Origin: a virus
Direction: 5' to 3' (one strand)
Length of the DNA stretch: 38,376 bases
Virus record (IMG/VR): IMGVR_UViG_3300047462_000696
Coordinates: 1-38,376 of that record
How positions within the stretch are numbered: position 1 is the stretch's first letter; every line of letters begins with the position of its first letter. Below, piece by piece: positions 3,858-20,875 of the stretch. The notes beneath the pieces were generated by a model, which worked only from the letters and a program-made list of their open reading frames with translations, was not told where the DNA came from and did not search any database. A program made the position numbers and the translations under genes.

Positions 3858-4371
3858 TGTCACTCTCGATCAGGCGCTTCCGGTTATCCAGAATCTCGCG
3901 GAGCGCAAAGCGGGCGCGTTTGTGCGCCGTCGCCGATTACCCATCGACGAATGCGAGGACGTCCAAAGCCATCTCGTTCTCACCTTCATCGCCCGTTGGC
4001 CGAAGTTCAATGGAGAGAGAGCTTCAGTGCAGACTTTCGCGTCCCGGCTGATGGACAAAGAACTGACGTCCGTCCTGAGATATCGTTTCGCTCAGGGTCG
4101 GCAACCGCGCGAACTTCCGGTGCCGCATTCAGGCCCCGCTGCGGCATTGATCCATCAGTTCCGCATTGATCTCGAACGCGCACTGGCTCCACTTCCCAAC
4201 CCCGTTCGCGAAACAGCGTCCGCTCTGGCGTCGTACTCCGCGGTTGATGCGGCGGGCGTCGTCGGGTGTTCGCGGCAAATGATCAGCAGACGGAAACACC
4301 AGATCCGCGAAGCCTTACTCGCTGCGGGCATCGGGCCGGACTACTTCGCCCGGGGAACCACGGTGCAATGA
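3850..4371 (+). CDS. Phage sigma-70 family (ECF-like) sigma factor
   Basis: A 173-residue protein with the layout of a small sigma factor. An N-terminal helical part resembles region 2 (CEDVQSHLVLTFIARWPKF, then TFASRLMDKELTSVLRYR, the -10 recognition helix region). A linker leads to a C-terminal helix-turn-helix resembling region 4 (SAVDAAGVVGCSRQMISRRK). Such proteins direct RNA polymerase to special promoters. I chose GTG 3850 because GGAGG lies just upstream at 3840-3844; a TTG at 3832 extends the frame by six residues. It overlaps the previous gene by 8 bp and the primase by 4 bp (ATGA). A phage sigma factor in the replication operon suggests control of a later gene class. A non-sigma HTH regulator is the alternative. 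Confidence 0.6.
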   Translation: MADVTLDQALPVIQNLAERKAGAFVRRRRLPIDECEDVQSHLVLTFIARWPKFNGERASVQTFASRLMDKELTSVLRYRFAQGRQPRELPVPHSGPAAALIHQFRIDLERALAPLPNPVRETASALASYSAVDAAGVVGCSRQMISRRKHQIREALLAAGIGPDYFARGTTVQ

Positions 4372-5093
4372 GCGCTGATTCCATCGCTCGGGCCCTCAAG
4401 GCGCGCCGTTCCGGCGCTGGCTGGATGGCGAAATGCCCCGCACACGACGACCACAATCCGAGCCTGAGCATTCGGGATGCCGACGGCAAGGTGCTGTTGC
4501 ACTGCCACGCCGGTTGCTTGCAGCGCGAGGTGATTGAAGCGTTGAAGGGAAACGGCCTTTGGGCGGAGCGTCCCGCGAAACCGCGCCGGAAAATAGTTGC
4601 GACCTACGATTACACCGACGAAGCCGGGCATCTGCTTTACCAGGTTCTTCGCACCGAACCGAAAGGCTTCTTTCAGCGGCGTCCTGACGGCGAGGGCGGC
4701 TGGATCAACAAGAAGAGCAAACGGCAGGTGCTTTTTCACCTGCGAGAAGTTGTTGAAGCGCCCATCGTCTTCGTTGTGGAGGGAGAGAAAGACGCCGAGA
4801 CCCTGCGAAGCCAGGGGTTCGTCGCGACGACTAACGCCGGAGGCGCGGAAGCGCCGTGGCTGCCCGAATTCAGCGACGCGCTCGCCGGACGCGAAGTCAT
4901 TGTAATCCCCGATAACGATAAGCCGGGCCGAGATCGGGCAGCGCGTATCGCCCGTGCACTGATCGGCCGCGTGACGCGGTTGGTCATTCTCGAACTCGAA
5001 GGGGCGAAGGATGTGACTGAGTGGTTCGACAAAGGGCACGGGGAGCTTGAGCTGATCGAGTTGGTTGAAAAGGGGCTCGCGGCGACGGCATGA
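4368..5093 (+). CDS. CHC2 zinc-finger / TOPRIM DNA primase
   Basis: A 241-residue primase-type protein. Residues 23-50 form a CHC2-like zinc finger (CPAHDDHNPSL with C23 and H26, LHCHAGC with C46 and C50), which recognises template DNA. The TOPRIM domain follows, with the glutamate motif VVEGEKDAETL (E138) and the metal-binding PDNDKPGRDRA (D182, D184). It makes RNA primers for phage replication, probably acting with the helicase encoded next. I chose ATG 4368 because it overlaps the sigma-factor stop (ATGA) and begins just ahead of the zinc finger; an upstream frame extension to 4266 lies inside the sigma gene. It overlaps the helicase gene by 4 bp. The zinc finger plus TOPRIM without an internal helicase is typical of phage and plasmid split primases. 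Confidence 0.9.
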   Translation: MSADSIARALKARRSGAGWMAKCPAHDDHNPSLSIRDADGKVLLHCHAGCLQREVIEALKGNGLWAERPAKPRRKIVATYDYTDEAGHLLYQVLRTEPKGFFQRRPDGEGGWINKKSKRQVLFHLREVVEAPIVFVVEGEKDAETLRSQGFVATTNAGGAEAPWLPEFSDALAGREVIVIPDNDKPGRDRAARIARALIGRVTRLVILELEGAKDVTEWFDKGHGELELIELVEKGLAATA

Positions 5094-6571
5094 CGAACGA
5101 AATCCGCGACGAGACCGACATCGACGACTTCGTCCAGCGATTCGAAGCAGGCGCTGCGGCCGGCCCCGATCTTCTTTCACGCCTCTACAACGATCACGGC
5201 AACGCTGAGCGCCTCATTGCGATGTACGGCGAGGATCTGCGGTTTTGCCATGCTTTCAAGAAATGGCTGGTCTGGGACGGCATGCGGTGGGCGGTCGACG
5301 ACACGGACCAGGCACGCCGTCTGGCAAAGCAGACTATGCTCGAATTCCTGAAGCTTGCCATCGAACGCGGTGGCGACGAGAAGGCCGAGAAGTTCGCGCG
5401 TGCGTCGCTCGACGCCCGGCGCATCGGCAGCATGCTGTCGATGGCTGAGTGCGAAATATATATTCGTCCCGCCGATCTCGACACGGACCCGTTCGCCCTG
5501 AATTTCCTGAACGGCACGGTCGATCTGCGCACCGGCACGCTGCGAGACCACCGACGTTCGGACTTCATCACAAAGCTTGTTCGGTACAGACATACTCCGG
5601 CAGCGGACTGTCCACGATGGCTTGCGTTTCTCGATCAGGTGATGGGCGGTGGCCCGGACGCAGCGGAAACTGACCTTGACCGATCGCGGCGTCTGGTCGC
5701 TTACCTGCGGCGGGCGCTGGGTTACTCGCTCACCGGTACCACCATCGAGAAAGCTGTCTTCATCCCGTTCGGCACCGGCGACAACGGCAAGAGTACGATG
5801 CTCAGCACCTTCCGAAATCTTGTCGAGGAATACAGCCATCTGCTTCAAGTGGACACGCTGATGGTGCGTCAGGAATCGAACAACACCCAGGCCGATCTTG
5901 CGGACCTTCGCGGTGCGCGCTTCGTCCAGACTTCCGAAACTGAAGAAGGCCAGCGCCTCGCTCAGGGCAAGCTGAAACGCATCACGCAGGGCATGGGCAA
6001 GATCAAAGCCACGCGAAAGTACGAAAACCCAATCGAATTCGCCGAGACGCACAAACTGTGGATGGACACGAACCGCAAGCCCACGATCCGCGACGTTGAC
6101 GACAAGGCGACGTTCAACCGGCTGCACCCGATTCCGTTCACGGTGACGATTCCCAAAGCGAAGATCGACAAGCAACTTCCCGACAAACTGCTGGCCGAAG
6201 CCGAAGGAATTCTCGCGTGGGCGGTCGAGGGCGCGCGGCTCTGGTATGCGGAGGGGCTCTCGAAACCTGCGGAGGTCGAGGCGGCGAAGGAACAATGGCG
6301 GGAAGATATGGATCAACTCGGGCGTTTCATCGACGAGCGCTGCGTCGTCGGCGACGCAGTCCGAGCGGGGGCGACAGCCCTGTATGGCGATTACAAACAA
6401 TGGGCAATCAACGGTGGCGACCGGTCGATGTTGTCTTCTACCGCTTTCGGCACGAAGCTTACGGATCGGGGATTTGCGAAACGCCATTCTGAGCGTGGCG
6501 CGGTTTACATCGGAATCGGGCTTCGCGCCGACGACCAACAGCATGCGGCTGACGGGTTTGACAAAAACTGA
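5090..6571 (+). CDS. D5/P4-type superfamily 3 replicative helicase
   Basis: A 493-residue protein of the phage/plasmid primase P4 C-terminal family. The N-terminal D5_N-like region ends with ALNFLNGTVDLRTG (residues about 136-149), a family hallmark. Walker A is GTGDNGKST (228-236), followed by a Walker B-like strand (LRGARFVQTSETEEG) and the sensor segment HKLWMDTNRKPTI. It unwinds DNA at the replication origin as a ring ATPase, and pairs with the primase just upstream (ATGA overlap). The end is odd: the frame stops at 6571 after AADGFDKN, while the +1 frame continues for about 35 codons in a tail rich in Gly, Asp, Pro and Ser. The first CTGACGGGT repeat of the downstream array lies inside the last codons. 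Confidence 0.9.
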   Translation: MTNEIRDETDIDDFVQRFEAGAAAGPDLLSRLYNDHGNAERLIAMYGEDLRFCHAFKKWLVWDGMRWAVDDTDQARRLAKQTMLEFLKLAIERGGDEKAEKFARASLDARRIGSMLSMAECEIYIRPADLDTDPFALNFLNGTVDLRTGTLRDHRRSDFITKLVRYRHTPAADCPRWLAFLDQVMGGGPDAAETDLDRSRRLVAYLRRALGYSLTGTTIEKAVFIPFGTGDNGKSTMLSTFRNLVEEYSHLLQVDTLMVRQESNNTQADLADLRGARFVQTSETEEGQRLAQGKLKRITQGMGKIKATRKYENPIEFAETHKLWMDTNRKPTIRDVDDKATFNRLHPIPFTVTIPKAKIDKQLPDKLLAEAEGILAWAVEGARLWYAEGLSKPAEVEAAKEQWREDMDQLGRFIDERCVVGDAVRAGATALYGDYKQWAINGGDRSMLSSTAFGTKLTDRGFAKRHSERGAVYIGIGLRADDQQHAADGFDKN

Positions 6572-6662
6572 CGGGTCTGACGGCACTTCTTCAAAAACTA
6601 CTTCATCACGCGCATATAAGGGAGTTTTTGAAGAAAACCCGTCAGAACCCGTCAGCCGTCAG
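6549..6662 (+). repeat. Symmetric CTGACGGGT repeat array with central hairpin, candidate origin or control site
   Basis: On the left, CTGACGGGT occurs at 6549-6557 and 6568-6576, followed by CTGACGG at 6577-6583. On the right, the inverted form ACCCGTCAG occurs at 6637-6645 and 6647-6655, followed by CCGTCAG at 6656-6662. Between them, TTCTTCAAAAACT (6587-6599) and AGTTTTTGAAGAA (6623-6635) are a perfect 13-bp inverted repeat around a 23-base spacer containing CATATAAG. The arrangement is three plus three copies mirrored about a hairpin, directly after the primase and helicase genes. This fits a replication origin with initiator sites, or an operator and terminator. No experimental counterpart is known to me. 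Confidence 0.65.
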
Positions 6663-6700
6663 GTTTTCTCTGCGTAAGCGGTCAAACTAATCGAAAGCCG

Positions 6701-6730
6701 TTTACATTTTTCCGGCGCTCTGCGTATATT
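6701..6730 (+). promoter_or_regulatory. Sigma70-type promoter candidate
   Basis: TTTACA (6701-6706) and TATATT (6725-6730) are separated by 18 bp, each one mismatch from the -35 and -10 consensus. The site lies 39 bp after the repeat array and about 130 bp before the next gene at 6860. It would drive the 6860 gene and perhaps the methyltransferases. Consensus promoters of this quality are rare in this GC-rich sequence, which supports it. Confidence 0.5.
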
Positions 6731-6799
6731 TGTGTTGAAGGCGCAGTTCGACAGGCCAGCGCACAGCGCACCCTCCGAAGGTCCACCCCCAATCAGTAT

Positions 6800-6817
6800 C
6801 GAGAGACGGGACTCTCG
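6800..6817 (+). other. Small leader hairpin
   Basis: CGAGAG and CTCTCG form a perfect 6-bp stem with a 6-base loop (ACGGGA) in the leader between the promoter candidate at 6701-6730 and the gene at 6860. No T-run follows, so it is not a standard terminator. It may stabilise the leader or be incidental. Confidence 0.25.
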
Positions 6818-6859
6818 TTAAACTCCTTCCCTTTCCTGCTGTACCCGAGGTGTGCCCGG

Positions 6860-7195
6860 ATGAAATCCCCCGATCAAATTCCGTACTACGCGCCCGACGG
6901 CGGTTCGCTCGGCTTTCGAACTATCGAGGCTGCCAGACGGCTCCTCGCCGGAGGTTACGTGAAGCCAGCCTACGGCCGCAAGGGTCACCTGAAGGCGATC
7001 TGGCTGCTCCAGCAGGGCGGCAGCAATCCCGTTGAGACACACCCTCGATCCGGTACGCGATATGTCTTCATCGAGACCTTGGAGCGCGGTCGATGCTATA
7101 CGCTTCGGCGTCTGGATCAGAGAGACGACGACGGAGTGCCCGTCAGCATGCGCGCCGCCTTCCTCCAGGTCATTTCGGACTGCACAAGATCATGA
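6860..7195 (+). CDS. Hypothetical phage protein (regulatory or DNA-associated, unassigned)
   Basis: A 111-residue basic protein that I cannot name. It has a regular N-terminal segment (YYAPDGGSLGFRTIEAARRL, then AGGYVKPAYGRKGHLKAIWL) that reads like a small alpha/beta domain with a basic loop, then a beta-rich C-terminal half (TRYVFIETLERGRCYTLRRL). No catalytic motif or membrane segment is seen. The ATG at 6860 has GAGGTG upstream at 6848-6853. It is the first gene after the promoter candidate and repeat array, and its stop overlaps the ATG of a possible small ORF (7192). Location between replication genes and methyltransferases suggests an early or middle phage function. Confidence 0.65.
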   Translation: MKSPDQIPYYAPDGGSLGFRTIEAARRLLAGGYVKPAYGRKGHLKAIWLLQQGGSNPVETHPRSGTRYVFIETLERGRCYTLRRLDQRDDDGVPVSMRAAFLQVISDCTRS

Positions 7196-7401
7196 AGAGC
7201 GAACGACGGCAGGTCGGTGGACGGTACCTCGCAAGGGCACGGGGCGCGTTCCGTCGCCGCACGGTGCGACCGGACGAACCGGGTGGGACAACGGGCCAAC
7301 CCGAGGTCAAACGGTGCGACACAGGCCACACGGGCGCGACAGGGCCGGAACGGAACTCCCTCGCTGCCACGCTTGCCAGGATTTCAGGGACCTGTTTTTG
7401 A
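7192..7401 (+). CDS. Possible small ORF of low confidence
   Basis: A 69-residue ORF beginning MKSERRQVGGRYLARARGAF, whose ATG overlaps the previous stop (ATGA), so it may be translated by coupling. The composition is basic at the start, then Gly/Thr-rich (EPGGTTGQ, TGHTGATG). Other frames through the same 300 bp are also open, as expected for GC-rich DNA, so coding is doubtful. The stretch contains ACGGTGCGAC twice, exactly 50 bp apart (7261-7270 and 7311-7320). If this ORF is not real, 7196-7494 is a 299-base stretch in which I see no other gene. Confidence 0.25.
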   Translation: MKSERRQVGGRYLARARGAFRRRTVRPDEPGGTTGQPEVKRCDTGHTGATGPERNSLAATLARISGTCF

Positions 7402-7459
7402 AGGTGCGGGCCGCGGGTAGAAATATAGCGCAGCTTGCGTAGTTAGTAAGGCTTAGGCA

Positions 7460-7481
7460 GGTTGTCACTTCGGGTTGTCAC
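7460..7481 (+). repeat. GGTTGTCAC direct repeat before the methyltransferase start
   Basis: GGTTGTCAC occurs at 7460-7468 and 7473-7481, a 13-bp step, immediately upstream of the ATG at 7495. Tandem sites at a start region can be an operator for the downstream gene; ParB-like or methyltransferase autoregulation would be plausible. It is too short to be sure. Confidence 0.3.
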
Positions 7482-7494
7482 CCCTCAAAATCGA

Positions 7495-8889
7495 ATGCAT
7501 CTCCCCACCCAGATCGAGCTCCGGTCGGTCCGCGCGCTCCTGCCGCACGCCCGCAACTCGCGGACGCATTCGGACGAGCAGGTCGCTCAGGTCGCAGCCA
7601 GTATCCGCGAGTTCGGCTGGACGAATCCCATTCTGGTGGACGGCGACGGTGTCGTCATCGCCGGGCACGCCCGACTTCTCGCTGCCCGGAAGCTGGGGAT
7701 GGAGGAGGTCCCGGTCATCGTGCTGGCCCACCTGACGCCAGCGCAGAAGCGGGCGCTGGTCATTGCCGACAACAAGCTGGCGTTGAACGCGGGCTGGGAC
7801 GAAGAGATGCTGCGCTCGGAAGTCGCCGCGCTCCAGGAGGACGGCTTCGACCTGGACCTTGTTGGGTTCTCCGACGAGGAGCTTCGCACTCTGCTGGCGG
7901 ACCATGCTCTCGGCGGGGAGGACGACGCGGGCGAGGACGAGATTCCTGAAACGCCCGTCAACCCGGTGTCCCGTCCCGGCGACGTGTGGGTGATCGGACG
8001 GCACCGGCTGATCTGCGGAGACTGCCGGGATGCCGCTACGGTGGCGCGACTGTTCGACGGCGCGCGGGTGAACGTGGCGATCACTTCGCCGCCGTATGCC
8101 TCGCAGCGAACCTACGATCCCTCAAGCGGCTTCCAGCCAATCCCTCCCGACGATTACGTGGCGTGGTTCGGCGATGTCGCACGCAACATCGAGTCGGTGC
8201 TGGCTCCCGATGGCTCGTACTTCCTGAATATCAAAGAGCATTCGGAGGACGGCGAACGCAGCCTCTACGTGAAGGATCTGGTGCTGGCACACAAGCGCGA
8301 ATGGGGCTGGCGTTTTGTCGATGAGTTCTGCTGGAGGAATACCGCAAACGGCGTGCCGGGCAAGTGGCCCAACCGGCTGAAGAACGCCTGGGAGCCGGTG
8401 TTTCATTTCTGCCGGAACAAGGAGATCAAGTTCCGGCCGAAGGGCGCTGGCCACAAGTCCGAAGACGTGGTGGTGTACGCACCGGGCAATCCCTCAGCGC
8501 CGAGCGGCTCCGGCCTCCTCGGTTGCGGTGCCGAGAAGACCACGGGCATCGCATGGCCGAGCAATGTGATCGAGACCAAAGCTGAGGGTAGCCAGGGATC
8601 GCACTCCGCTCCCTTCCCCCGCGCGCTGGTCGAGTTCTTCGTGAAGGCGTTCTCCGACGAGGGCGATTCCATTTTCGACGTGTTCATGGGAAGCGGTACG
8701 ACGATGGCAGCGGCGCATGTGCTCGGGCGGATCGGCTACGGAGTCGAACTCTCCCCTGCCTACTGCGACGTGATCCTGCGCCGGATGCAGGAACTCACCG
8801 GCTACGAGCCAGTGCTGGCCGCGACGGGACAGACGCTCCGCGAGGTCGCGGAAGATCGCGGCGTGATCGAGGAGCGGAAGGCAGCCTGA
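7495..8889 (+). CDS. ParB-like domain fused to SPPY-type DNA methyltransferase
   Basis: A 464-residue fusion. Residues about 7-130 are a ParB/Srx-like N-terminal domain (QVAASIREFGWTNPILV, then VIAGHARLLAARKLGM with the GHxR box). A DNA methyltransferase follows, with catalytic motif SPPY (198-201) and AdoMet-binding motif I FMGSGTT near 397-403, the circularly permuted beta order. SPPY is common in N4-cytosine and some N6-adenine enzymes, so the target base is uncertain. No restriction endonuclease is adjacent, which points to an orphan phage methyltransferase that protects DNA or controls genes. I chose ATG 7495 because the conserved domain begins there; a TTG at 7462 extends the frame without a better binding site. 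Its stop overlaps the next gene by one base. Confidence 0.88.
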   Translation: MHLPTQIELRSVRALLPHARNSRTHSDEQVAQVAASIREFGWTNPILVDGDGVVIAGHARLLAARKLGMEEVPVIVLAHLTPAQKRALVIADNKLALNAGWDEEMLRSEVAALQEDGFDLDLVGFSDEELRTLLADHALGGEDDAGEDEIPETPVNPVSRPGDVWVIGRHRLICGDCRDAATVARLFDGARVNVAITSPPYASQRTYDPSSGFQPIPPDDYVAWFGDVARNIESVLAPDGSYFLNIKEHSEDGERSLYVKDLVLAHKREWGWRFVDEFCWRNTANGVPGKWPNRLKNAWEPVFHFCRNKEIKFRPKGAGHKSEDVVVYAPGNPSAPSGSGLLGCGAEKTTGIAWPSNVIETKAEGSQGSHSAPFPRALVEFFVKAFSDEGDSIFDVFMGSGTTMAAAHVLGRIGYGVELSPAYCDVILRRMQELTGYEPVLAATGQTLREVAEDRGVIEERKAA

Positions 8890-10139
8890 TGATGATCGAT
8901 CTCTCCCGGTTGCAGGTTCAGGTCTGGTCCATCGACAGGCTGCTGCCCTACATCCGAAACGCGCGCACCCATACCGAGCAGCAGGTGGCGCAGGTCGCGG
9001 CGTCGATTCGGGAGTTCGGGTGGACGAACCCGATCCTTGTTGCTGCGGACGGTACAATCATCGCCGGCCACGCGCGGCTTGCGGCAGCCCGGAAGCTGAA
9101 AATGACCGAGGTGCCGGTCATCGTTCTCGATCACCTGGCCGAGGCACAGCGGCGCGCGCTGGTGCTCGCGGACAACAGGCTCGCGCTCGATGCCGGTTGG
9201 GACGAGGAGATGCTGCGGGTGGAACTGGCGTCGCTTCAGGAAGACGGTTTTGATCTCGACATCGTCGGGTTCACGGATGAGGAACTCGAAGACCTGCTTC
9301 GCGACCCGGAAGAGACACGCGATGGATTGACGGACGAGGACGCCGTTCCCGACGAGCAGGAAACGGCCATCACCGTTCCGGGCGATGTATGGGTGCTGGG
9401 CGACCATCGTCTGCTGTGCGGCGATGCGACCAGCATGGATGCGATCCAGACGGTTCTGGCGGGCGGCCTCGCGGACATGGTCTTCACGGACCCGCCGTAT
9501 AACGTGGACTACGTCGGCAAGACGGCGAAGAAGCTCAAGATTGGCAACGACGCGCTGGGCGGGAAGTTCTATGACTTCCTTCGCGAGGCATGCACGAACG
9601 TCTTGGCGGTTACCAAGGGAGCGATCTACATCTGCATGTCCTCGTCGGAACTGCATACGCTCTTCCGGGCGTTCACGGACGCCGGAGGCCACTGGTCGAC
9701 GTTCGTGATCTGGGCGAAGCACCATTTCACGCTGGGGCGGTCGGACTACCAGCGGATGTACGAGCCGATCCTCTACGGTTGGCGCGACGGAACGGATCAC
9801 TTCTGGTGCGGCGCGCGGGACCAGGGCGACGTGTGGTTCATCAAGCGGCCCATGGCGAACCTCGAACACCCTACGATGAAGCCGGTCGAACTGGTCGAGC
9901 GGGCGCTGCGCAACAGCAGCAAGACGCGCGACACGATTCTCGATGTCTTCGGCGGGTCCGGTACGACGCTGATCGCGTGCGAGAAGTCGCGGCGGCAGGC
10001 GCGGCTGATTGAGTTGGAGCCGAGGTACTGCGATGTGATCGTCCGGCGCTGGCAGGAGTACACGGGTGAAGCGGCGCGGCATGCAGTATCCGGTCAGTCT
10101 TTCGGCGAGTTGGCTTCCGCCTGCGCGCCCGCAGCCTAG
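8889..10139 (+). CDS. ParB-like domain fused to DPPY N6-adenine DNA methyltransferase
   Basis: A 416-residue paralogue of the gene just upstream. The N-terminal ParB-like domain (residues about 10-137) is very close to its neighbour: QVAQVAASIREFGWTNPILV is identical in both, and the GHAR box and GWDEEMLR are shared. The methyltransferase half is different: catalytic DPPY at 201-204, typical of N6-adenine enzymes, and motif I FGGSGTT near 354-360. The substrate is adenine in an unknown site, with AdoMet as donor. The start may be the ATG at 8889 or the next codon at 8892; it overlaps the previous stop by one base. The pair looks like a duplication of the ParB part with a swapped or diverged catalytic domain. 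Confidence 0.9.
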   Translation: MMIDLSRLQVQVWSIDRLLPYIRNARTHTEQQVAQVAASIREFGWTNPILVAADGTIIAGHARLAAARKLKMTEVPVIVLDHLAEAQRRALVLADNRLALDAGWDEEMLRVELASLQEDGFDLDIVGFTDEELEDLLRDPEETRDGLTDEDAVPDEQETAITVPGDVWVLGDHRLLCGDATSMDAIQTVLAGGLADMVFTDPPYNVDYVGKTAKKLKIGNDALGGKFYDFLREACTNVLAVTKGAIYICMSSSELHTLFRAFTDAGGHWSTFVIWAKHHFTLGRSDYQRMYEPILYGWRDGTDHFWCGARDQGDVWFIKRPMANLEHPTMKPVELVERALRNSSKTRDTILDVFGGSGTTLIACEKSRRQARLIELEPRYCDVIVRRWQEYTGEAARHAVSGQSFGELASACAPAA

Positions 10140-11191: not shown

Positions 11192-11291
11192 TTGGCTTTA
11201 GTCCTTTTCGCTCAGTAGCTTGCGCGGTGTCTCCGCACCACGATTCATCACTCCGGTGCGCTTGGAAGGCAAGTCAATTCTTCAGGAAAAA

Positions 11292-11816
11292 ATGGGCGTC
11301 TCTCTCAGGGCTTACGCACGGATGCGCGGATGCAGCCTGACCGCCGTCCAGAAGGCCATCTCCAGCAAACGGATCACGACGCTCGCTGACGGGACCATCG
11401 ACCCGGAACGAGCCAACCAGGACTGGGCGAAGAACACGTTCGCCGGGCAGACGGTCCATAAGCCGAGCGCCGCATCGTCTGATCGCCTCCCGCCGGTTCA
11501 CGAATCCGCGGTGGGATCGGGAGATCCGGTTACGGCGTACCTGCGGGCGCGGGCTGTCAAAGAGAGCTTCGCGGCACGAACCGCCCAACTGGAATACGAG
11601 GAGCGTGCAGGCAAGCTGATCCCGGCAGTGCGCGCCTCCGAGTACGCCGCGACCTTTTCGTCCATCGTCAAGGACGGTCTGATGGCGATGCCGGATCGTG
11701 TGTCGCCGATGCTCGCTGCCGTCGATGACGAGAAGGCGATTCACCGAATGCTGGCCGCCGAGGTTGCAGCGGTACTGCGGAAGGTGAGTAAGTCAGTCGC
11801 GGACGCGGGTCTTTAA
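11292..11816 (+). CDS. Putative terminase small subunit (Nu1-like)
   Basis: A 174-residue protein immediately upstream of the large terminase. The N-terminal part reads as a helix-turn-helix (SLRAYARMRGCSLTAVQKAI), as in lambda Nu1, which recognises the packaging site. The middle and C-terminal parts are helical (AVKESFAARTAQLEYEERAG, VRASEYAATFSSIVKDGLM) and resemble Nu1-type oligomerisation and terminase-large-contacting segments. I prefer ATG 11292, preceded by AGGA at 11284-11287, to the TTG at 11220, which adds 24 residues with no domain content. Position and architecture give the call; no single diagnostic motif is present. Confidence 0.75.
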   Translation: MGVSLRAYARMRGCSLTAVQKAISSKRITTLADGTIDPERANQDWAKNTFAGQTVHKPSAASSDRLPPVHESAVGSGDPVTAYLRARAVKESFAARTAQLEYEERAGKLIPAVRASEYAATFSSIVKDGLMAMPDRVSPMLAAVDDEKAIHRMLAAEVAAVLRKVSKSVADAGL

Positions 11817-11818
11817 AG

Positions 11819-13723
11819 ATGACGCCACTCTCCATTCACGAAGTCGGAGCAGCGGCGATGCTGCCGCCGCGAGACATTCTGGTCTCGCAGTGGGCCGACG
11901 AGAACCGCGTCCTCACCGGCGGCGCGTCCGCCGAACGAGGCCAGTGGCGCACGCGCTCCTATCAGCGTGAGCCGATGGATGTGCTCAGCCCCGGCCACCC
12001 CTGCCGCCAGGTGGTGTTGCTGTCGGCGGCTCAGATGATGAAGACCGAGGTTCTGCTGAACTTCCTCGGCTTCATCGCCGATGTCGATCCGGGTCCGGTG
12101 CTGGTGGTCGAGCCGCGCACGGAGGATGCCAAGGCGCTCTCGAAGGATCGCGTCGCTCCTATGTTTCGGAGCACGCCTGCTCTGCGCGGGAAGATCGCGC
12201 CCGTCAAATCGCGCGACTCGAACAACACGACGCTGCACAAGGTGTTCGTTAACGGAGCGGGACACATCACGTTCACCGGAGCGATCTCGCCGTCGGGTCT
12301 GGCGATGCGGCCGATCCGCTATGCGCTGCTCGATGAGGTGGATCGGTACCCGGCGAGCGCAGGCACGGAAGGCGACCCGGTTTCCCTGGCGATCCAGCGG
12401 ACGGCGGAGTTCCAGCACAACACGAAGATCGTCATGGCTTCGACGCCGACGGTCAAAGGCATCAGCCGGATCGAGATGGCATGGAAAGAAAGCGACCAGC
12501 GCGATTTCTTCGTGCCGTGCCCGAAGTGCGGCCACTACCAGGTGCTCGTGCTGGGCGATGGAACCGGGCCGGGTCTGGTGTGGCCCGAGGACCTGCCCGA
12601 CGACGCGATGTACCGTTGCGCCGGTTGCCGGGAGTTAATCCCCGCCCACCAGAAGGCGTGGATGGTCGAGCGTGGCGAGTATCGCGCGCAGAACCCTTCC
12701 TCGCAGATTCCTGGCTTCCGCATCTCGCAGTTGATCTCGCTGAAACGCCCGTGGGGTTCGATTGCCACCGAGTTCGTCGCGGCCAAGAAGTCGCCAGAGA
12801 CGCTCAAGGCGTTCATGAACACGGTCCTGGCGGAACTGTGGGAAGAGAACCACGAAGTGCCGACCGACGCACGGGCGTTGTGGAATCGCTGCGAGCCATT
12901 TGAAGCGGAGGCGCCTGACGGCGTCGCGTTGATCACGGCGGGCGTCGATGTGCAGGCCGACCGCCTCGAAGTCGAGATCGTGGGCTGGGGTCGCGACGAG
13001 GAGTCCTGGTCGATTGCGCACCATGTGATCCCCGGCGACGTGATGCGCAACGAAGTGTGGGATCACCTCGAAGGCTTGCTGCTCGCCGAGCATCTGCACG
13101 ACACCGGTCAGACGCTGCGGATCGTGGCCGCGTGCATCGATTGCGGGTTCAAGGATGCGACGGTGCTGCGTTTCACGCGCGACCGTTATGCGCGCCGCGT
13201 GTATGCGGTGAAGGGACGCGCGGGCGAGTCTCCGATCTGGCCCCGCAAGCCTAGCCGGAAGAACCAGACGCCATTCTTCATGGTCGGTGTGGATGCAGCG
13301 AAGACGGCGCTCTATGATCGGCTGAAGATCGGGGAGGTCGGGCCGGGATACTGCCATTTCCCGATTGGCCGCGATCAGGAGTACTTCGATCAACTTACCG
13401 CCGAGCGGAAGTTCACGCGCTATCACAACGGCTATCCGAAGCAGGAATGGCGGAAGCCTTCTTCCGCGCGGAACGAAGCGCTCGATTGCCGCGTGTATGC
13501 CTACGCCGCGTTGCAGGCGCTCTACGCCAGCGGTTTGAAGCTGGGCGTCCACTGCGACCGCTTCGCGAAGATGGCAACGCCGAAACGCATCGATTCGAAG
13601 CTGGTGCCGCCACCGAAGCCGCGATCTCAGGCGCAGGAAGAAGTGGCGGCTGGCAGCGATTTGTCGAGGCCGTTCGAACGTGTGAATCAAGAACCGTGGA
13701 TACCACGGAGGAACTGGTTCTGA
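11819..13723 (+). CDS. Terminase large subunit (lambda GpA family)
   Basis: A 634-residue packaging motor and nuclease of the GpA family. The ATPase half carries the divergent Walker A SAAQMMKTE (69-77), as is typical of GpA, and Walker B YALLDEVDRYP (LDEVD at 171-175). A zinc-ribbon-like insert follows (CPKCGHY, CAGC). The C-terminal nuclease half starts around AGVDVQADRLEVEIVGWG and includes a metal-binding acidic set. It cuts concatemeric phage DNA and pumps it into the prohead with the small subunit encoded 2 bp upstream. The length is close to lambda GpA (641). The start is ATG 11819. Packaging is probably of the cos type, as expected for this family, but no cos site was identified. Confidence 0.95.
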   Translation: MTPLSIHEVGAAAMLPPRDILVSQWADENRVLTGGASAERGQWRTRSYQREPMDVLSPGHPCRQVVLLSAAQMMKTEVLLNFLGFIADVDPGPVLVVEPRTEDAKALSKDRVAPMFRSTPALRGKIAPVKSRDSNNTTLHKVFVNGAGHITFTGAISPSGLAMRPIRYALLDEVDRYPASAGTEGDPVSLAIQRTAEFQHNTKIVMASTPTVKGISRIEMAWKESDQRDFFVPCPKCGHYQVLVLGDGTGPGLVWPEDLPDDAMYRCAGCRELIPAHQKAWMVERGEYRAQNPSSQIPGFRISQLISLKRPWGSIATEFVAAKKSPETLKAFMNTVLAELWEENHEVPTDARALWNRCEPFEAEAPDGVALITAGVDVQADRLEVEIVGWGRDEESWSIAHHVIPGDVMRNEVWDHLEGLLLAEHLHDTGQTLRIVAACIDCGFKDATVLRFTRDRYARRVYAVKGRAGESPIWPRKPSRKNQTPFFMVGVDAAKTALYDRLKIGEVGPGYCHFPIGRDQEYFDQLTAERKFTRYHNGYPKQEWRKPSSARNEALDCRVYAYAALQALYASGLKLGVHCDRFAKMATPKRIDSKLVPPPKPRSQAQEEVAAGSDLSRPFERVNQEPWIPRRNWF

Positions 13724-19996: not shown

Positions 19997-20875
19997 TTAG
20001 GCAACCGGCGTGATTTCCAATCGCGCGCATTCGTCGCAGACGGTTTCCGGCCAGTCGTTCCCCCACGTGTAGCGATGCCGCCCGTGTGAACATGTAGACC
20101 AGCCGTTAATCACGTCCGCCGTGCTGGCGCACTGTTTAAGGAGCGCAGTGAGTTGCGACATAAAAGACTGCAACTCATCCCCCGTGTTGAACAGCACATC
20201 GAATATGACGGCGGAACCGTTTGACTTGTTGACAAACTGGTATCGACGCACGATGTTCGAAATCCCCTCGCCGAATTGGCTGTACCTTCGCTCATCGGGA
20301 AACGCATCGCGCATGAAGCTGATTTTCCCCATTTTTGGAAAAACCCCTGCTACGTAGCCAGCGTTCGCGGGGCCACCGGCCCGCTCTGACGGCGGTCGCG
20401 AAGCTATCCGTGAGCGAAAGAGCCAAGCCAGCCAAGATTTTCCAGATTTCCCGTCAGACTTCGGTTGAGGTCGTGGCTCAAGTGTCGAAAAGTAACCGCT
20501 ACTGATGCGCCACACGGAAATCCTTCGAATTCGTCGTGTGGACCCATCGAATGCCCCTCCGCGCAGGGGCTCTCGTCGTTTTGCGTACGTATCGAAGTCG
20601 AGGCGGCCAGTGGGAATCGGGTATTGTGCCGTGTCCGAGATTTGATACTGCTGGATCGGTAGTTCGTTATGCCAGATTGTCACCTCACGACGCATATCGT
20701 GCTCCAAGTCGGCGGCGGAGGTCGTAAAGTAGGGGTTTTCCCACGGGAGGCCTTCTGAGCAGTCCTCGGACCACATTTTCTTGGCCTCTTCGTCAGTCAG
20801 AACCTTGTGAGCAGGCAGAGCTTTCTCGAAAAAGGCCGCGACTGCTTCGCGTAGGTTTGCGGTCTCGAAGGTCAT
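19997..20875 (-). CDS. Reverse-strand cargo gene, unknown family, possible zinc site
   Basis: A 292-residue soluble protein on the minus strand, lying between the head-tail joiner and the tail terminator. The family is unknown. Features: an N-terminal helical segment (LREAVAAFFEKALPAHKVL), a Gly/Pro-rich middle (residues about 135-175) with basic residues, a conserved-looking beta segment (GNIVRRYQFV-like; VIFDVLFNTGDELQSF), and a C-terminal CSH-x18-CDEC arrangement that could bind zinc. Base composition is less GC-rich than the phage genes, and it runs against the late operon, which fits acquired cargo. The start at 20875 is only 38 bp from the next plus-strand gene, so promoter elements overlap. 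Confidence 0.55.
   Translation of the reverse strand: MTFETANLREAVAAFFEKALPAHKVLTDEEAKKMWSEDCSEGLPWENPYFTTSAADLEHDMRREVTIWHNELPIQQYQISDTAQYPIPTGRLDFDTYAKRREPLRGGAFDGSTRRIRRISVWRISSGYFSTLEPRPQPKSDGKSGKSWLAWLFRSRIASRPPSERAGGPANAGYVAGVFPKMGKISFMRDAFPDERRYSQFGEGISNIVRRYQFVNKSNGSAVIFDVLFNTGDELQSFMSQLTALLKQCASTADVINGWSTCSHGRHRYTWGNDWPETVCDECARLEITPVA

Follow-up and report, generated by a model that had tools for sequence, protein, structure and literature searches.

A cluster of mirrored short repeats overlaps the 3' end of a P4-type helicase gene in a tailed-phage genome, which raises the question of what this DNA does for the phage. The genome is a single virus record of 38,376 bases, analysed in full and hereafter called the window. 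Genes for both terminase subunits, small and large, lie at 11220-13723 and set the window apart from satellites (PICI), which by definition lack a large terminase and structural genes of their own. The host is probably an acidobacterium, because the closest cellular relative found was a Bryobacteraceae metagenome-assembled genome (85% identity). In the left part of the window, a P-loop kinase of the zeta-toxin/AAA_33 type is predicted at 709-1290.

The helicase matches three Pfam families, namely D5_N (3e-32), DUF5906 (3e-11) and Pox_D5 (2e-4). Its profile also matches PDB entries 7ola and 7om0 (5e-22), which are named only 'DNA primase' and which are presumably SaPI5 PriRep.

Structure of the repeat element

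The element at 6549-6662 comprises three repeats, three inverted copies facing them and a 13-bp inverted repeat in between (Table 1), an arrangement that the preliminary description had given correctly to the base. The 53 bp between the two arrays have a G+C content of 34% (18/53 by direct count) against approximately 60% in the surroundings, and their central core is proposed as the melting site.

Table 1. Features of the helicase region and the repeat element in the window.
Feature	Position	Strand	Basis or remark
DnaG-type primase gene, helicase partner	4365..5093	+	Pfam Zn_ribbon_DnaG and Toprim_2; PHROG DNA primase
SF3 helicase gene (P4-type), putative replication initiator	5090..6571	+	Pfam; PHROG DNA primase/helicase
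Helicase C-terminal winged-helix (Pox_D5), proposed repeat-binding domain	6302..6505	+	Pfam Pox_D5, aa 405-472
Iteron 1, CTGACGGGT	6549..6557	+	Exact copy
Iteron 2, CTGACGGGT	6568..6576	+	Exact copy; helicase stop TGA 6569-6571 inside
Iteron 3, CTGACGG	6577..6583	+	Exact copy
Inner 13-bp dyad, left arm, TTCTTCAAAAACT	6587..6599	+	Perfect inverted repeat; symmetry kept in relatives
Central core, ACGCGCATATAAGG	6608..6621	.	Conserved in close relatives (alignment of 18 elements)
Inner dyad, right arm, AGTTTTTGAAGAA	6623..6635	-	Perfect match to left arm
Iteron 4, ACCCGTCAG	6637..6645	-	Exact copy
Iteron 5, ACCCGTCAG	6647..6655	-	Exact copy
Iteron 6, CCGTCAG	6656..6662	-	Exact copy
Promoter-like site, TTTACA-18-TATATT	6701..6730	+	Just right of element; consensus match only

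The symmetry was scored as the best 7-mer that occurs at least twice on each strand within 250 bp. This statistic reached 6 at the element, against a maximum of 4 (reached once) in 5000 dinucleotide shuffles, and was 2 or less in every other 250-bp stretch of the window. The symmetry is thus far above chance, as had been claimed, and unique in the window. The motif CTGACGG/CCGTCAG occurs 16 times in the window against 7.8 expected, with 6 of the 16 copies inside the element. A lone convergent pair at 20386-20457, with 58 bp between its members, is probably due to chance. The GC skew of the window showed no clear switch at 6.6 kb and was uninformative as an origin signal.

Recurrence at D5-helicase genes

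A survey was conducted on 188 loci collected through helicase similarity only, whereby the best 8-mer on both strands was scored in 450 bp at the gene 3' end (positive at 3.5 or above) and control windows were drawn from the same loci. Such a scan of D5/P4-type helicase genes had been proposed in the preliminary description, and its outcome was strongly positive: inverted repeat clusters were found at 94/188 gene ends but in only 3/890 control windows, and after dereplication at 70% protein identity at 40/96 loci against 0/450 controls. The strict test counts exact repeats, and some of the 56 dereplicated loci that it scored as negative are degenerate positives by eye; degenerate copies are evident by eye in L033, L034, L039, L040 and L047, where the strict score is negative or low.

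Among the 40 dereplicated positives, the central gap between the facing arrays is mostly 48-80 bp (median 60.5), and the G+C content of the centre is below that of the gene in 38. The letters of the repeats vary among loci (e.g., TGACGGGT, TGGAGGGT, GTGAAGGA, TGTAGGCA, GGGTTACT and GGTGTATA), and the elements of Bacillota, which have both inner and outer repeats, are longer. Positive hosts include Acidobacteriota, Bacillota, Chloroflexota, Planctomycetota, Myxococcota, Pseudomonadota and one archaeal genome bin, with the possibility of binning errors where the assignment is that of a single metagenome contig. Five actinophages in which a DNA polymerase gene follows the helicase (L017, L019, L020, L021 and L032) had no repeat cluster at the helicase 3' end, and their origin may lie elsewhere. 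Repeats near the gene were also absent at some other loci, and actinophages among the apparent negatives encode a DNA polymerase I of their own. An alternating purine-pyrimidine (Z-DNA-like) centre is striking in some G+C-rich members (CGCGCGTATA), and was rejected as a general trait given that p<0.05 was reached by just 27% of elements.

Viral contigs were also searched by motif alone, with the helicase ignored. The pattern TGACGGGT-TGACGG-(42-70)-CCGTCA was found in 75 stretches, a handful of them on contigs previously met through the helicase search, and 50 of the 75 follow a D5 helicase at a distance of 15-437 bp. With the TGGAGGG variant of the motif, 15 of 25 stretches lay just downstream of a D5 helicase, whereas this was the case for none of the 17 stretches returned by a letter-reversed control of equal composition.

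Elements separated from the helicase gene

Thirteen viral loci encode a related helicase, and in ten of these the end of the gene carries the element in a version with changed letters; in one of the ten (L006) the right half of the copy is damaged. At L007 there is a different repeat (GTGACCGA) plus extra copies. Two loci appeared to be counter-examples, as their helicases are 96% (L001) and 94% (L002) identical to that of the window and the element is absent at the gene end. They were dropped as such when a search of the whole contigs located the element, almost unchanged in its letters, 1.7 kb downstream. The intervening gene in L001 (5721-7316, opposite strand) encodes a metallophosphoesterase, a calcineurin-like protein of 531 aa, and that in L002 (6522-8036, + strand) a caspase-like protein of 504 aa whose caspase domain matches the PADLOC caspase model. 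The different cargo in such near-identical phages suggests that the gap between helicase and element is a site at which accessory genes, perhaps for defence, become inserted. Furthermore, because a near-identical element persists 1.7 kb away, the element is a separable DNA module kept with the helicase type, rather than the tail of a gene or an RNA signal at its 3' end.

In five further loci (L259, L287, L291, L295 and L242) the element sits upstream, 0.8-3 kb before the helicase match, a placement that is reminiscent of P4 ori1 and likewise speaks for a site that stands on its own. Two matches came from a single contig (L255/L259).

Proposed function and mechanism

The preliminary description had assigned the element the place of a replication origin or control site, and an origin at the 3' end of the D5/P4-type helicase gene is now the best-supported reading. 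The element is very probably the origin of the phage, with the C-terminal winged helix of the helicase as the proposed binder of the repeats and an A+T-rich dyad between them. This is concluded from sequence comparison, because inverted iteron clusters recur with changed letters at D5-helicase 3' ends, because the motif-only search leads back to D5 helicases, because the iterons persist when cargo separates helicase and element, and because the P4 crr and the Sfi21 origin have a similar layout beside homologous helicases.

In the proposed mechanism, the SF3 helicase would bind the CTGACGG(GT) repeats via its C-terminal winged helix. The inverted arrays, approximately 53 bp apart, would then load a pair of mutually facing helicase rings, with the dyad between them, and the symmetric A+T-rich centre would melt or extrude as a hairpin. 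Finally, the neighbouring Toprim primase would prime the exposed strands before a host or phage polymerase takes over.

A winged-helix fold of the C-terminal domain is supported by modelling. The AF2 model has moderate confidence (pLDDT 74) and the order H-E-H-H-E-E, and its best Foldseek matches among solved structures are the DNA-bound RFX winged helix (1dp7) and ASFV PrimPol (E of approximately 0.004-0.03). The RFX half-site is of the GGTNAC type, which many iterons resemble (GGTGAC, GGTTAC), and the RFX-like model and RFX-like iterons may reflect a shared way of reading DNA. Covariation between iterons and the C-terminal domain was considered as proof of the binding domain and rejected as weak and not domain-specific. 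The partial Mantel correlation was small (partial r 0.14; 3/300 permutations), iteron similarity also tracks the N-terminal D5_N segment (0.20), and linkage of neighbouring DNA would give such covariation anyway.

Alternative explanations

A transcription control site, in which the helicase or a different regulator would use the repeats as operators to govern the promoter-like site or the operon end, is the strongest of the alternatives, although improbable. The promoter-like site is kept with the element in L001 and L002, where identical letters occur downstream of the displaced copies, and iterons often double as autoregulatory sites. However, the element stands after, not before, the helicase gene, its spacing is narrow (48-80 bp) with an A+T-rich dyad centre, and the homologous layout is a known origin in P4, Sfi21 and PICIs.

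The symmetry might instead act in the transcript, with a long stem serving to terminate the helicase mRNA or to make it more stable. The predicted RNA fold is very stable (z-score -6.3, with 0/200 shuffles equally stable), as the fold of symmetric DNA of such kind must be, and in an alignment of relatives both-side changes keep the symmetry in 10 of 16 predicted pairs (iteron and inner pairs counted). Such changes are likewise expected of inverted protein sites, and are consistent with a DNA-level dyad and with hairpin extrusion alike. An Rfam scan of the element returned only sub-threshold plant and animal miRNA models, reflecting the hairpin shape. Against an RNA role, extra or unequal repeats in many elements (L007, L045, L123 and Bacillota) preclude one stem, the displaced elements lie behind other genes (L001, L002), in L001 behind a gene on the opposite strand, and four elements lie upstream of the helicase (L259, L287, L291 and L295). 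A plain terminator, which the preliminary description had named as the alternative that would undo its proposal, is not supported, in that the element is kept when moved from the gene, and a scan of 6000-7500 found no intrinsic-terminator match and no T tract. An RNA hairpin or terminator is therefore very improbable.

Less plausible again is a partition (centromere-like) site. Two adjacent paralogous genes at 7462-10139, after the element, each encode a ParB N-terminal domain fused to an N6/N4 DNA methylase domain, and their products would be the partners of such a site. However, phages in which different genes follow downstream, such as AcaML1, also have the layout beside a D5 helicase, and the motif-only search ties the element to the helicase.

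The coding tail, in which the repeats would be selected as amino-acid repeats at the protein end, can practically be dismissed: the element lies entirely within the helicase reading frame in L043, L048, L074 and L106, but these are the only wholly coding elements among 106 loci surveyed, and a stop codon lies before or inside the element in the other 102 (contained in 41, preceding it in 61). Coding tails such as the preliminary description had mentioned for other helicase genes do exist, but as this minority.

Significance

The balance of evidence tilts slightly towards a broader proposal, namely that the helicase with its 'iterons - dyad - inverted iterons' cassette is the common self-contained replicon of a large fraction of tailed phages and prophages, which spans bacterial phyla and some archaea, with arrays approximately 50-70 bp apart and freely drifting letters. 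This proposal runs contrary to the published view of such origin organisation as peculiar to PICIs. The open-licence papers searched describe neither the element of the window nor the breadth of its kind among ordinary tailed phages, and none of them states a general helicase-origin rule for phages. For most phage genomes the origin is not known, and a rule based on the 3' end of the D5 helicase gene would make origins predictable from sequence. The same rule places P4, SaPI/PICI, SCCmec and Sfi21 under a single scheme together with the replicons of ordinary prophages. In addition, the many natural pairs of initiator and site offer a way to read the DNA choice of the winged helix.

Comparison with known systems

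The preliminary description had regarded the element, if general, as little described and tied to this gene family. The tie stands (50/75 and 15/25, with 0/17 in the control), but the kind is already known from PICI/SaPI, P4, SCCmec and pRN1. It is less undescribed than had been held, because the sites of PICI/SaPI, P4 (crr), SCCmec (Cch2) and Sfi21 are of the same kind.

In PICI origins, two iteron sets flank an A+T-rich region directly 3' of rep, and plasmid replication from them has been shown (PMC6092414). The window resembles PICI/SaPI in having an SF3 helicase of the D5/DUF5906/Pox_D5 type as putative initiator, a site immediately 3' of the helicase gene (here overlapping the stop codon), and iteron sets (three plus three here) around an A+T-rich stretch. 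However, the window is a tailed-phage genome and no satellite island, its iteron letters differ, and its helicase and primase are separate genes.

Through its C-terminal domain, the SCCmec helicase Cch2 binds short repeats that lie downstream of the gene encoding it (PMC7581432). The placement is like that in the window, but the Cch2 site consists of direct AAGTG iterons in 23 bp, with inverted repeats dispensable for binding (PMC7581432), whereas the window iterons form two inverted arrays. In pRN1, a stem-loop of approximately 100 bp 3' of orf904 is needed for replication, and the authors extended their stem-loop origin proposal to phage BIP-1 (PMC4234260). A long dyad 3' of an SF3 replication gene is common to both systems. 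However, pRN1 is an archaeal plasmid with a prim-pol domain and its origin is described as free of iterons, with no specific binding seen (PMC4234260, PMC3869888), whereas the window has iterons and a separate zinc-ribbon/Toprim primase gene.

In P4, the annotated crr follows directly after the stop codon of alpha (domains D5_N, DUF5906, Pox_D5 and Toprim), and its type I iterons form inverted groups. The crr is thus like the window element in placing inverted iterons directly downstream of a homologous helicase gene; unlike the window, P4 has two sites (ori1 and crr) separated by approximately 4.5 kb, its crr is divided from the gene by a terminator, and its iteron is GGTGAACAG/T. The Streptococcus phage Sfi21 has an annotated 302-bp noncoding origin (Foley et al., 1998, as cited in PMC6356513) that starts at the helicase gene 3' end and contains two plus two inverted TTAGTTAC iterons with an A+T-rich centre. 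It differs from the window in host, in iteron letters and in a longer, more spread-out array. The alpha protein of P4 and the Sfi21 protein have DUF5906 and Pox_D5 in common with the window helicase, and both align with its family over most of the helicase region.
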